Shown here: in pieces, positions 2,883 to 56,358 of the stretch
Layout: each line of letters opens with the position of its first letter
How positions within the stretch are numbered: the first letter of the stretch is position 1
NCBI GenBank assembly: GCA_029565675.1
Contig: JAKQNP010000004.1
Location: 1-64,000 of the forward strand
Direction: 5' to 3'
From: a bacterium
GTDB taxonomy: Bacteria; Zhuqueibacterota; Zhuqueibacteria; Residuimicrobiales; Oceaniaggregativiventaceae
DNA length: 64,000 nt
Made by a program: the position numbers and the translations under genes
The notes under the pieces: generated by a model
The model's input: the letters and a program-made list of their open reading frames with translations, nothing else
What the model was told of the DNA's origin: nothing
The model's database searches: none

Positions 2883-2948
2883 CAGATTCGGCGTTAATCG
2901 AATAAAATAACATTCAATCGCCTGTTCTTCAAGCGGTTGCGAAAAGGG
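2883..2948 (+). repeat. Partial dispersed palindromic element (copy A, left part only)
   Basis: Begins CAGATTCGGCGTTAATCGAA and ends GCGGTTGCGAAAAGGG. It matches copy B base for base at most positions at a 78-bp offset, but lacks the right-end hairpin, so it is a truncated or tandemly duplicated left half. Confidence 0.75.
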
Positions 2949-2960
2949 CACTTCCACCCC

Positions 2961-3097
2961 CAGATTCGGTGTTAACCGAATCAAAAAACATTCAATCGCT
3001 TATTCTTGATGCGGTTGCGAAAAGGTCGCTTTTCACTCAACGCGCATTGCCACCAGATTGATTTTCTTTAAGATCCGGTGCTGCGCACCGAATCCGG
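2961..3097 (+). repeat. Dispersed palindromic (MITE-like) element, copy B
   Basis: Left end contains the perfect hairpin GATTCGGT-GTTA-ACCGAATC (2963-2982). Right end GATCCGGTGCTGCGCACCGAATCCGG (split here: GATCCGGTGC, TGC, GCACCGAATCCGG) ends at 3097. Read on the minus strand the right end starts CCGGATTCGGTGC, an inverted copy of the left terminus CAGATTCGGTG. Length 137 bp, close to copy C (134 bp). Confidence 0.75.
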
Positions 3098-3291
3098 GTT
3101 CACCCTTTGTGTATGGCTATTGACAACTGTTGAATAGATGGTTAACACGAAGGAAATGCACAACATCCGGCAATGGTGGAAGATGATGTATCTCTGCCGG
3201 AGAAGGAAAAAGCGATGCGAGTCCGGTGATCCTCAAGAGCGGCAACTGATTACAAGCCTGTCAACCGTCTATGCCTCTCCAGAGGACGGAG

Positions 3292-7771: not shown

Positions 7772-7806
7772 GATTCTGCGAGCCGGGCAAGCCAGCTCGC
7801 AGAATC
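7772..7806. terminator. Strong hairpin downstream of the lipoprotein gene
   Basis: Perfect 12-bp arms GATTCTGCGAGC (7772-7783) and GCTCGCAGAATC (7795-7806) with an 11-nt loop, 20 bp past the stop at 7827. There is no T run on either side, so it may be a Rho-independent-like stop without tail or an mRNA 3' stabiliser rather than a classical terminator. Confidence 0.55.
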
Positions 7807-7826
7807 AGAGGTCGGGTTAAATCGAA

Positions 7827-9557
7827 TTAAAGAACGCCAAAATCGGTAAAAACCTGGCGCGCCGCTTCGATGGCTTCAGAGTTGGTCATAAAATAGAATG
7901 GAAAGCCCATGACCACGGCCTTGTGTTTGGGGCCGATATACTTCGCGGCGACCGGGTGATCCTGAAAATCGGCATTGCCGCCGGCAGAGATAAAGTTATA
8001 GATCACCTCAACGCCATCGACATCCGGCCTTACGGTCAGCAGATCGATGGGGCTCAATTTGTTGCCGAAAGCCGGCGAAAAATTCTTGGCCGCGTCGACA
8101 TTGATGGTCGGATATCCGGCCACACCGGTTGCACCGGTAAAATCAAAGGGCGTAGCCGGTGTCTGGCGGGTTGTGGCGATCTTGAAATAATCCCAGACAA
8201 AGGCAGCATTGGTGGGAGCGCCGCCAGCTTCGGGATTGAAGCTGGCAGGTGTGGAAGAGGCCAAACCGTTAAGCGTCTTCCAACCGCTGATCCAGAGATT
8301 GCCGCCCAGCCTCATATACTCACTCAAGGAACGGGTTCGGGCCTGCAGAGTGGTGGCAAAACTTTCATCCGACTGCCAGATCACCGTGCGATAGCTGCCC
8401 AGGCCTTTTCCTGGTGTAGGCGGCATGCCTTCTGCCTTGTTGTCATAAAGATAGAATGGCAAGCCGAGAGCGGTCAAAACATCGGAATAGAACTGGTCGA
8501 CTGCCGCATTCTTGGCGTAGCGGCCGTCGCTCTCATCGACCACCATCACGCCCTGATCAAACGTGGGATGCACCAGATTGAAATTAAAGACCACCGGATC
8601 GCTCTCGATGCCGCCGGTATCCTTGACGCGCAGCGTAAAGGTGTGTTGCCCGGCAGCCAGGTTGGCAAACAGGGTGTCCTGGATCGCCAGCCACGGGGTT
8701 TCGGGCTGATCATCGATCTTGAATTTTGCGGCCTGATAATGGCCGTAATACGCCGATGCATTGACTTGCCAGTTAAAACGGACATTGTTGGAATCGCCGG
8801 CAAAATAAAAAGCGCTGTTGTCTTCATAAAAAGCCAGCGAATTGATCGTTTTGTTCAGCACAGCGATCGGTTTCACATCCGCAGAGACGACAAAACTGAA
8901 AGAGGCCGGGGTTTCGTCAACCGCCATACCGGCGTCGCGCGCCTGGGCATAGAACGTATGCGCACCCAGCGGCAGCGGATTGGCTTCGAGAAATTCGACT
9001 GCATCGTTCGTCGACCAGTTGGACCAGGTGCCGTTCTCATCGAGTTTCCACCGATAGGAGAATTCCGGACCATTGTCCGGATCGACGGCGCTGAGATAGA
9101 ATTTCTGCGCTTTGCCGAAAGTAGAGCCTTGCGGCGGATTGTCGTCCAGGGTAATTTCAGTTTCAGGAACGATGTTCTGGGCTGTAAACGCGACCGACGC
9201 CGGGGTGGGATCGATGGCGCCGTCGTCGTCAACCGACGCCGCAATGATCGAGTGCTGTTCGTCTTTATTGGCGGCGGAGAAGCGGAAAGTGGAATCGGTC
9301 TTGCTGGTTAGAAAAGTTGTGCCGTCAACCGTGACCTCATATTTGACCACATAACCGTCTGTATCGCTGCCAAGCCAGCTGATCGGCATGTAATAAGAGT
9401 TTGAGGCATCCAATCGCGGTGCAGCGACGAGTCTGGTGTCAGGCGGCTGATTGGCAGCACTCGGTGAATCGGCCGGCTCAAAAATATCGCAGCCGATCCA
9501 GGCTGTCACCATGCCGACAAGGGCGATCAGCAGCAAGGTTTGCAAAAGTTTATTCAT
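7827..9557 (-). CDS. Lipoprotein with fibronectin/Ig-like repeats and an amidotransferase-like segment
   Basis: 576 residues from the ATG at 9557, chosen because GGAGGAA sits 3 bp upstream (9561-9567). The signal peptide ends at a Cys at residue 23 (AWIGC), an imperfect lipobox, so lipidation is probable rather than sure. About residues 40-240 hold two or three beta-sandwich repeats (PISWLGSDTDGYVVKYE, ASVDDDGAIDPTPASVAF). From about residue 345, GVMVVDESDGRYAKN and VIWQSDESFATT resemble the GATase-like domain seen in other FCB surface proteins; SEYMRLGGNLWISGWKTL fits its helix-strand core. Last gene of the TonB receptor cluster, 76 bp after the PorV-like gene. Function unknown; a surface-exposed accessory of the receptor is an inference. 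Confidence 0.75.
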   Translation of the reverse strand: MNKLLQTLLLIALVGMVTAWIGCDIFEPADSPSAANQPPDTRLVAAPRLDASNSYYMPISWLGSDTDGYVVKYEVTVDGTTFLTSKTDSTFRFSAANKDEQHSIIAASVDDDGAIDPTPASVAFTAQNIVPETEITLDDNPPQGSTFGKAQKFYLSAVDPDNGPEFSYRWKLDENGTWSNWSTNDAVEFLEANPLPLGAHTFYAQARDAGMAVDETPASFSFVVSADVKPIAVLNKTINSLAFYEDNSAFYFAGDSNNVRFNWQVNASAYYGHYQAAKFKIDDQPETPWLAIQDTLFANLAAGQHTFTLRVKDTGGIESDPVVFNFNLVHPTFDQGVMVVDESDGRYAKNAAVDQFYSDVLTALGLPFYLYDNKAEGMPPTPGKGLGSYRTVIWQSDESFATTLQARTRSLSEYMRLGGNLWISGWKTLNGLASSTPASFNPEAGGAPTNAAFVWDYFKIATTRQTPATPFDFTGATGVAGYPTINVDAAKNFSPAFGNKLSPIDLLTVRPDVDGVEVIYNFISAGGNADFQDHPVAAKYIGPKHKAVVMGFPFYFMTNSEAIEAARQVFTDFGVL

Positions 9558-20719: not shown

Positions 20720-20755
20720 AATTGCTTTTTCCTCAATATAAGTGTCGTGCATTCC

Positions 20756-20889
20756 CCGATCCGGTGTAACTGAATCGCAAACATTCTATCTCAACTTTTT
20801 AGAACAACGGCGAAAAGAACAATCGCTGCCCTTCGCGCACATCTTTCAAATCGATGCACTGCAAGATGCGGTGCCTAATCCGAATCCGG
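20756..20889 (+). repeat. Dispersed palindromic (MITE-like) element, copy C, between tig and clpP
   Basis: Left part CCGATCCGGTGTAACTGAAT to AACGGCGAAAAGAA aligns along its full length with copy B (ACATTC, CGGnnGCGAAAAG blocks), and the right end GATGCGGTGC then CCGAATCCGG closes it at 20889. Total 134 bp versus 137 in copy B. The last 15 bp overlap the coding end of tig. Confidence 0.7.
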
Positions 20890-22188
20890 CGCATTTTCTT
20901 CTTCTTTTTCCCGACGCCAGGGTTTTTTAACGGTCTTGATCTTGACCTGCTTGGTCAGCCAAGCAAACAGGGCATCATCTGCAAGCTGATCTTTCAGCGA
21001 CTCGAAACGATCTTTATTCCCTTCGATGGCGGTGGCGCGCTCCTGGGTGAGCGCTCCGGCCTCTGTGCGTTCCTGCAAATGGGCACGGGCTTGCTCATCC
21101 GTCACTTCGATCCCCGCCTTTTCCAACAAACGGCTGCGAATCAGAATCCATTTTAGCGTCCGCTCCGCACCTTCTCGCGATTTTTCCCGAACCTGCTTCT
21201 CGTCGGTTTTGCGATCGCGCTGCCTGGCTTCCTGGACAACGGTTTGCAGATAGCGCTCCAGCATCGTCGGCGGAATCTGCAGATCGTTGCGCGACAGGAG
21301 CGTCTCCATCATGGCCTCGCGAAAACCATATTCCGATTCTGAATCGGCGTTCTTTTTTAAATTCTCTTCGAGTTGTTTTTTTAATTCGCCGAGGTTTTTG
21401 TAATTGCCGAGGTCTTTGGCAAAATCATCGTCCACTTTGGGTATCTGACGCAGCTTGATCTCTTGCACCGAAAACTCGAGGTGGATATCTTTCGGTTGTT
21501 CAGCTTCGTTGATTTGACTGGTTTGCTTTTCAGGCGCGGGGATCGCGATGCGAATCCGACGAACATCGCCGGCGCGGACGCCCAGCAGTTGGGGAGTAAA
21601 TTCTTTATCCTCTTCATGCAGAAAAATAGTCTGCTTCTCGTATCGGCGGCCGATGATCGGCAAACCCGAACGATCCAGCTCTTGTATATCGCCAACGACA
21701 TGATGGCCGATTTGCGCCTCGCCTTCTACCGTATGGATCATGGCATTCTGCTGCTGCAAAGCGGCGAGAGTGTTTTCAACGTCCTTTTTATCGATGGAAT
21801 AAATGATCTTCTCGATCGCTGTGTCCTGCAAATCCTGAACGGCGAAAACGGGGCGGACATCGAAGGTCACCTGGAAAGTCAAACCTTCAGCATCATCGAA
21901 CCGCACGTTTTCGATCTCCGGCATGGAAATCGGTTCGTACTTGTCGTCTTTCAGTATTTCGCTGATCGCTTGTTGAAAATAGGGGCCATAGACCTGTTCT
22001 TCGATCTGTTTGCCGAACATCTTTTTGACCAGATGCAACGGCACCTTGCCCTTGCGAAAGCCCTCGAGTTTGATGCGCTTCGAATAAGAAGCATAAGACT
22101 CGGTCAATTTTGGACTCACTTCGTCCGCAGCCACTTGAGCCGTGACCACAGTGTGCCAATTTTCCTGTTTGGTGCTTTGATATTGCAA
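20875..22188 (-). CDS. tig: Trigger factor, ribosome-associated chaperone and prolyl isomerase
   Basis: 437 residues from the TTG at 22186-22188, chosen because AAGGGA lies 8 bp upstream and the protein then begins LQYQSTKQENWHTVV like other trigger factors; the open frame up to 22341 reads through the tRNA gene and is an artefact. The ribosome-docking GFRKGKVP signature is at about residues 44-51. The middle PPIase region (IGHHVVGDIQ to SVQEIKLRQIP) is poorly matched to the FKBP consensus, as in many divergent members, and the C-terminal helical arms follow. The last four residues (PDSD) and stop lie inside copy C of the palindromic element. Upstream of clpP as in many bacteria. Confidence 0.9.
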   Translation of the reverse strand: MQYQSTKQENWHTVVTAQVAADEVSPKLTESYASYSKRIKLEGFRKGKVPLHLVKKMFGKQIEEQVYGPYFQQAISEILKDDKYEPISMPEIENVRFDDAEGLTFQVTFDVRPVFAVQDLQDTAIEKIIYSIDKKDVENTLAALQQQNAMIHTVEGEAQIGHHVVGDIQELDRSGLPIIGRRYEKQTIFLHEEDKEFTPQLLGVRAGDVRRIRIAIPAPEKQTSQINEAEQPKDIHLEFSVQEIKLRQIPKVDDDFAKDLGNYKNLGELKKQLEENLKKNADSESEYGFREAMMETLLSRNDLQIPPTMLERYLQTVVQEARQRDRKTDEKQVREKSREGAERTLKWILIRSRLLEKAGIEVTDEQARAHLQERTEAGALTQERATAIEGNKDRFESLKDQLADDALFAWLTKQVKIKTVKKPWRREKEEENAPDSD

Positions 22189-22262: not shown

Positions 22263-22347
22263 TGTGCGAGAGGGGGGATTTGAACCCCCAAGTCCATAGG
22301 ACACTAGATCCTAAGTCTAGCGCGTCTGCCAGTTTCGCCACTCTCGC
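22263..22347 (-). tRNA. tRNA-Leu (anticodon UAG)
   Basis: 85 nt on the minus strand. Acceptor arms GCGAGAG (5') and CTCTCGC (3') pair fully, with discriminator A. The anticodon stem CTAGA/TCTAG encloses CTTAGGA, giving UAG. T arm GGGGG-TTCAAAT-CCCCC, and a long variable arm as expected for a class II tRNA. CCA is not encoded. Its translation MAKLADALDLGSSVL is the well-known false peptide of Leu tRNA genes. Confidence 0.95.
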
Positions 22348-51106: not shown

Positions 51107-51360
51107 GCCATCGCGTACGTTTGGACGCACCCGGCAGCTTTCCCAGCGATTCTTCGTCCAGGATTCGGAGATTCGCACCGAATCTTGGCTCGTCATTTAT
51201 TTTCTCTAAAAGACCATTTTTTTATTTTAAGCACCTCCATGTCTGGCAGCCGCGGAAGCAAAGTTTTTCTGTTCTTTTCGGGTATGATATTTGCATCCAT
51301 ACTCGTTCAAGTCGCTTCCAAATTCCTTGATCTGATCGTTCATCAACCTTGAGGCAAAAA
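51107..51360. other. Gap upstream of the diguanylate cyclase with a palindromic remnant
   Basis: 254 bp without a supported gene. It contains GATTCGG and CCGAATC arms around 51162-51184, a likely remnant of the dispersed element, and AT-rich tracts near 51190-51230. Confidence 0.45.
51162..51184 (+). repeat. Partial palindromic element remnant (copy E)
   Basis: GATTCGG-AGATTCGCA-CCGAATC forms a 7-bp palindrome and reads as a short version of the element's ends. No further similarity was seen around it. Confidence 0.4.
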
Positions 51361-56048: not shown

Positions 56049-56181
56049 ACACCTTCTCCTTGTGCAATTGATTCGTTTGATGCAATTTTACGAAAACCAG
56101 CGACAAGACACAAGTTGTATTTGCCGCTGTGCAGCTGCTGCTTTTTCGTTGCAAATTCTGCAGAAAAATCCTATTATCATC

Positions 56182-56295
56182 CAGATTCGGTGTTAAACGA
56201 ATCACAACCCAAGCCAATTTTTCCTTTAATCAGGTGTGGAAAATCCATTCTGGCATTTGCCCCAATCCGGATTCAGTGCTTCGCATTGGATCCGG
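56182..56295 (+). repeat. Dispersed palindromic (MITE-like) element, copy D
   Basis: Left end CAGATTCGGTGTTAAACGAA (56182-56201) matches copy B with one base changed in the first twenty; right end hairpin CCGGATTCAGTGC-TTC-GCATTGGATCCGG (56267-56295) has 11 of 13 pairs in its arms. The middle is shorter and less similar. It lies between the divergently read cyclophilin and priA genes. Confidence 0.65.
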
Positions 56296-56358
56296 ATGTC
56301 GGTTTCCCGCGCTTTGGCCTGGTGGATCACAATTCCTTTTCTTATCCGCGATAGGCAA

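Follow-up and report, generated by a model that had tools for sequence, protein, structure and literature searches.

A probable MITE family with palindromic ends and 5-bp target-site duplications in KSB1 bacteria

Copies in the window

The window (the whole 64,000-nucleotide stretch of DNA analysed here) belongs to a KSB1 genome, G000, of 4.43 Mb in 64 contigs. It contains three long copies of a palindrome-ended repeat. Copy A (2959..3098, + strand) is a complete 140-bp element with a left hairpin at 2963-2982 and a right hairpin at 3072-3094. Copy B (20754..20890, + strand; 137 bp) lies between tig, the trigger-factor gene, and clpP. It is bordered by the target-site duplication (TSD) GCATT, with an exact match between the left (20749..20753, + strand) and the right flank (20891..20895, + strand). 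Copy C (56180..56296, + strand; 117 bp) has an internal deletion, and its neighbours are a cyclophilin gene and priA; its flanks show no exact TSD. An earlier note on this DNA had listed these three copies in one orientation. All three are present, and their positions were correct, except that the true ends are situated about 2 bp further out on the left and about 1 bp further out on the right. The inventory was incomplete, as it overlooked a solo 31-bp hairpin (51158..51188, no strand assigned), the flanks of which, TTCGT and CTCGT, agree at 4/5 bases. The left hairpin, allowing up to 3 mismatches, occurs at 3 sites in the window, compared with 0.02 expected from shuffles.

Copy A is complete but does not stand alone: it splits an older copy into a left part (2883..2958, + strand), which shows 86% identity to the left part of A, and a right part, of which the start is recognisable (3099..3120, + strand) and the remainder decayed. 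With A excised, the older copy aligns to the intact copies L110 and L079 with an excess of exactly 5 bases. Copy A is inserted into an older copy of its own family.

The genes flanking copy B were assigned as trigger factor and ClpP by Pfam. The trigger-factor frame enters copy B and stops at an internal TAG (...EEENAPDSD*); at window positions 20875-20895, the end of copy B gives trigger factor its last codons and its stop. When the flanks were joined computationally, leaving out copy B and one GCATT, the frame ended in ...EEENARHLY* at a different stop, just before clpP. The restored stop overlaps the likely ribosome-binding region of clpP. The ending ...NARHLY* would represent the ancestral end of trigger factor, as read from an empty site that is reconstructed and not an observed one.

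At the opposite end of tig, a minus-strand tRNA gene (22265-22347) overlaps the 5' end of the longest ORF that encodes trigger factor (starting with GTG at 22341); the true tig start is therefore probably downstream. The Pfam Trigger_N match starts at residue 53.

Family unit, genomic placement and distribution

The family unit is 140 bp long and reads CCCAGATTCGGTG...CACCGAATCCGGG, these two sequences being its terminal inverted repeats. The left terminal sequence can be written as CCC[A/G]GATTCGGTG, and the right end is CACCGAATCCGGG. One half of each end is the terminal inverted repeat, while the other half is a local inverted copy of that repeat, which turns the end into a palindrome or hairpin. 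Few ORFs were predicted across the elements, most of them short, and the unit carries no gene.

BLASTN with copy A on G000 gave 155 candidates. Among the matches listed, at least 40 were near-full copies, and at least five copies other than A shared at least 98% identity with it (at least six at 98-100%, A included). Genome-wide searches of G000 for the end patterns returned 90 left and 78 right sites, compared with 0 for the backwards patterns used as a control. An iterated nucleotide HMM, applied to ~0.55 Mb of stretches around detected ends, collected 134 non-overlapping members, 72 of which were near full length. Their lengths were tight (139-141 bp in 63/72). Further copies had been expected genome-wide; many were found, and the similarity extends across the full 140 bp and not just the palindromes. 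Of the 66 copies that could be compared with a neighbour, 30 share at least 95% identity with some other copy, so part of the family has probably spread recently.

The elements are mostly intergenic, as the earlier note had it. Their mean coding coverage, calculated from a simple greedy ORF set, was 16%, versus 86% when intervals of equal length were placed at random within those loci. The genes flanking the copies occur in co-directional, convergent and divergent arrangements.

Relatives were also found in other KSB1 genomes, where the earlier note had proposed looking for them. The exact 18-bp end CCCRGATTCGGTGTTAAC was searched across 63 genomes of the class and turned up in G000 and in two more distant KSB1 MAGs, G015 and G008. 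The sister species of G000, G001, carries variants of CCCRGATTCGGTGTTAAC and both 140-bp subfamilies, and its 140-bp copies have TSDs. G015 and G008, which belong to another family of the order, harbour 86-bp elements whose ends match those of the family and are flanked by 5-bp TSDs, whereas the interiors are unrelated; of the 17 TSD-flanked hits in these two genomes, 14 measure exactly 86 bp. About 20 exact left ends were counted in G015, the assembly of which is 70% complete. A GTDB contig scan with the G-form of the end hit only the KSB1 MAG Zod_Metabat.930 (= G015), MAG UBA2214 (= G008) and a single Nocardia contig, the latter within chance expectation. An IMG/VR scan for the 18-bp end gave no match.

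With the solo hairpins, the family comprises three length classes of 140, 86 and 31 bp. Helical phasing was considered for their spacing and dropped, the spacing not being integral. One contig of G015 stops exactly at a family element end (L293, G015:C26:8685), and the contig names bear k87, so the 86-bp repeats may be fragmenting this assembly.

Target sites and solo hairpins

TSDs, which the earlier note had suggested looking for, were detected just outside the CCC...GGG termini. An exact 5-bp TSD at a constant offset is present in 29/72 full copies. Flank composition predicts ~0.25 exact matches, and shuffling the right flanks among the copies gave a maximum of 3 over all offsets. At least 4/5 positions agree in 39/72 copies; the exact TSD is absent in 43/72, and 33 of those are below 4/5 too. 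The 5-mers so duplicated are rich in A and T (24% GC); T occupies position 1 in 23/29 and A position 5 in 17/29, and the preferred target looks like T-N-N-N-A.

At L036, one copy is nested within another, and the 284-bp composite retains its own TSD, TGATA. In addition, two tandem pairs with a spacing of 5-6 bp (L130:2499-2784 and L047:7328-7500) have the look of sharing a duplication (ATGCCA and TTATA, respectively), suggesting insertion beside an existing copy. Two syntenic sites were compared between G000 and G001, and neither provided a clean orthologous empty site. At the first, the element is absent from G001 and the sequence has diverged too far to place the junction exactly; at the second, a solo hairpin is found close by in G001. 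Where G001 is syntenic to a G000 copy at L271 ~7803-7907 (G001:C167), it holds a different small palindrome, GGTGTCCGGCAACCGGACACC, and no family element.

The solo form is a 31-bp palindrome, CCC[A/G]GATTCGGTG-N5-CACCGAATC[C/T]GGG, composed of two 13-bp ends and a 5-bp loop. Exact 5-bp TSDs were found at 5 of ~19 solo sites (L056, TATCA; L058, TATAA; L090, TTCGA; L101, TGAAA; L163, AGTCA), versus ~0.07 expected from the estimated per-site chance. G001 has three solos, 0/3 with an exact TSD.

We favour, with some reserve, the explanation that the solos are in-situ deletions of the 140-bp element, produced by slippage from a direct-repeat arm of the left hairpin to that of the right one. The TSD would survive such a deletion. 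Solo L083 shows the predicted mixed ends, and at a roughly syntenic site a full copy in G000 is matched by a solo ~13 bp off in G001. The base composition at position 4 is less easily accommodated: G was found in 7/10 solos, but in 10/69 full copies (A in 59/69; Fisher p ~0.0005), where orientation and type of the solos were assigned manually and the full copies were those with A or G at this position. The type-2 subfamily, however, carries G at base 4 and may have given rise to the solos. A deletion origin is also disfavoured by the perfect palindromes that several solos form. It is possible, if doubtful, that the 31-bp palindrome itself is mobile and inserts with a 5-bp duplication. If so, it would be among the smallest transposable DNA elements known, and the transposase would have to act on one hairpin alone or on a pair of overlapping ends.

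Mobilisation, hairpin maintenance and significance

Fixed-length TSDs together with defined ends are a hallmark of DDE transposases. We consider it very likely that the elements constitute a non-autonomous DNA transposon (MITE) of KSB1, presumably moved by a DDE transposase with 5-bp staggered cuts. The multiple copies, the full-length similarity, the TSDs in 29/72 copies and the relatives in other KSB1 genomes uphold the MITE reading put forward in the earlier note. Lacking any gene of its own, the element depends on an enzyme supplied in trans. In the proposed mechanism, the DDE transposase would bind the terminal palindromes and cut at the CCC/GGG ends, and the cut ends would be joined to a target cleaved with a 5-bp stagger. 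An integron attC reading was dropped because the copies are dispersed and have TSDs.

The search for the partner covered three transposase families (DDE_Tnp_1, IS1380 and Y1) and the stretches around known ends in draft assemblies, from which multi-copy IS elements are often missing. The stretches retrieved from the four carrier genomes yielded no autonomous element with family ends. Inverted ends with matching 5-bp flanks, searched up to 4.5-7 kb apart, delimited MITEs only, and none of the DDE_Tnp_1, IS1380 and Y1 transposase loci that were found was flanked by family ends. A DDE_Tnp_1 gene beside a copy in contig C4 of G000 was rejected as the partner; it belongs to an IS5-like element with unrelated ends, TGAAACTTCTGAAAAATTG. 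This IS5-like element is full (L047:4579-5592, transposase of ~337 aa, TGAAACTTCTGAAAAATTG-like ends) and lies in a MITE-rich 13-kb stretch.

A weak lead points to a transposase of the IS1380 family (DDE_Tnp_1_4) as the mobilising enzyme, an assignment that we regard as tentative. ISEcp1 makes a 5-bp AT-rich TSD, as the family does. IS1380 genes are present in G000, G001 and G015. In contig C62 of G000, a decayed left end, CCCATATTCAGTGTTAAC (L175:1138, 16/18), lies ~210 bp from a broken IS1380 gene; this end is possibly a remnant of an autonomous element or a coincidence. A solo hairpin is also located near IS1380 remnants in G001:C49. The left end of ISEcp1, CCTAGATTCTACGT (PMC7864471), resembles the family sequence CCCAGATTCGGTGT, with agreement at 10/14 positions. 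However, no IS1380 copy bounded by family ends was found in the carrier genomes, G008 carries the MITE with no IS1380 match, and IS1380 is widespread among members of the class that lack the MITE.

The earlier note had offered a REP-type repeat as an alternative. The hairpins would then be REP sequences moved by RAYT (a Y1 tyrosine transposase), with the 140-bp unit as a REP pair and the 31-bp form as singlets. The family is extragenic and palindromic and occurs as pairs and singlets; Y1_Tnp matches were obtained, two in G000 and three in G001, and REP singlets have been proposed to arise via deletion within REPINs (PMC3116915). This reading did not hold up and is very improbable, because defined 5-bp TSDs border both full copies and solos, and no close family hairpin was found within ~1.5 kb of the Y1 genes (two Y1 hits were at contig edges). 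To our knowledge, the description of REP/RAYT systems does not include TSDs. No family end at up to 1 mismatch occurs near the Y1 genes, with one 2-mismatch site at L172, and the 70% complete G015 assembly gave no Y1 match despite its exact left ends. The conserved GTAG/CGTC tag flanking REP palindromes (PMC3733652) is absent from the family consensus and flanks, as read by eye. The likeness to REPINs and REP singlets (PMC3116915, PMC3733652) lies in the extragenic hairpin pairs and solo hairpins; REPINs are attributed to RAYT transposases, whereas in the KSB1 family no linked RAYT was detected and the TSDs suggest a mechanism of the DDE type.

Pairing was assessed on an alignment of 75 full copies, in which both terminal hairpins are formed in 91.5% of cells. 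Hairpin pairs changed on both sides numbered 8, compared with 3.2 in shuffles; 0/500 shuffles reached 8, a figure that is not a probability, since related copies are not independent. Long-range pairing between the left and right ends showed no excess (2 covarying pairs versus 3.8 shuffled). In the type-2 subfamily, CCCGGATTCTGTGTCAACAGAATCC, which is common to G000 and G001, columns 10/19 changed from G-C to T-A. The compensatory changes within the hairpins, and the lack of an excess between left and right, indicate that the local end palindromes are preserved, whether as binding dyads for a protein or as hairpins. The built-in hairpin noted earlier at the left end (2963-2982 in copy A) is kept by such compensatory change. 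Intergenic placement, stable folds (z ~ -3.6 for copies A and C) and compensatory changes within the hairpins would suit conserved structured RNAs or cis-regulatory hairpins (terminators, mRNA stabilisers) that are not mobile DNA, but this is barely credible in view of the TSDs, the nesting, the near-identical copies at unrelated sites, the occurrence in co-directional, convergent and divergent gene settings alike and the lack of an Rfam match at the element. As mobile DNA, the elements may have a secondary role after insertion.

Bacterial MITEs, among them Correia/NEMIS, ERIC and RUP, have been reviewed (PMC2229807). They are likewise below 200 bp, non-coding and intergenic, with terminal inverted repeats, a TSD and stable hairpins, but most have TA termini, in contrast to the CCC/GGG ends, 5-bp TSD and palindromic terminal repeats of the KSB1 family. 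YPAL (RU-2) of Yersinia (PMC2229807) is also palindromic and intergenic, lacks a terminal TA and makes TSDs; it is 168 bp long, its inverted repeats are internal and its TSDs span 3-26 bp, whereas the KSB1 family has terminal inverted repeats and 5-bp TSDs. A literature search of partial coverage on KSB1 transposases and MITEs found nothing relevant. The small dispersed repeats of cyanobacteria, a different phylum, are similar by description: Elhai et al. (2008) reportedly described them as very small, hairpin-forming and apparently mobile. The earlier note knew of no named family with these sequences, and no named Rfam family matched the element. The MITE is a known kind of element; the KSB1 family is apparently undescribed.

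The family represents a high-copy and probably recent MITE spread in an uncultivated phylum, with exact ends, a 5-bp target rule and three length classes. It rises above the routine through this spread, the compensatory changes that preserve its double-hairpin ends and the 31-bp solos flanked by TSDs. Copy B is an example of a MITE giving a core chaperone a new C-terminus. The TSD-flanked solos make two questions testable, namely the minimum length of a transposon with terminal inverted repeats, and whether transposition or deletion gives rise to REP-like single hairpins.
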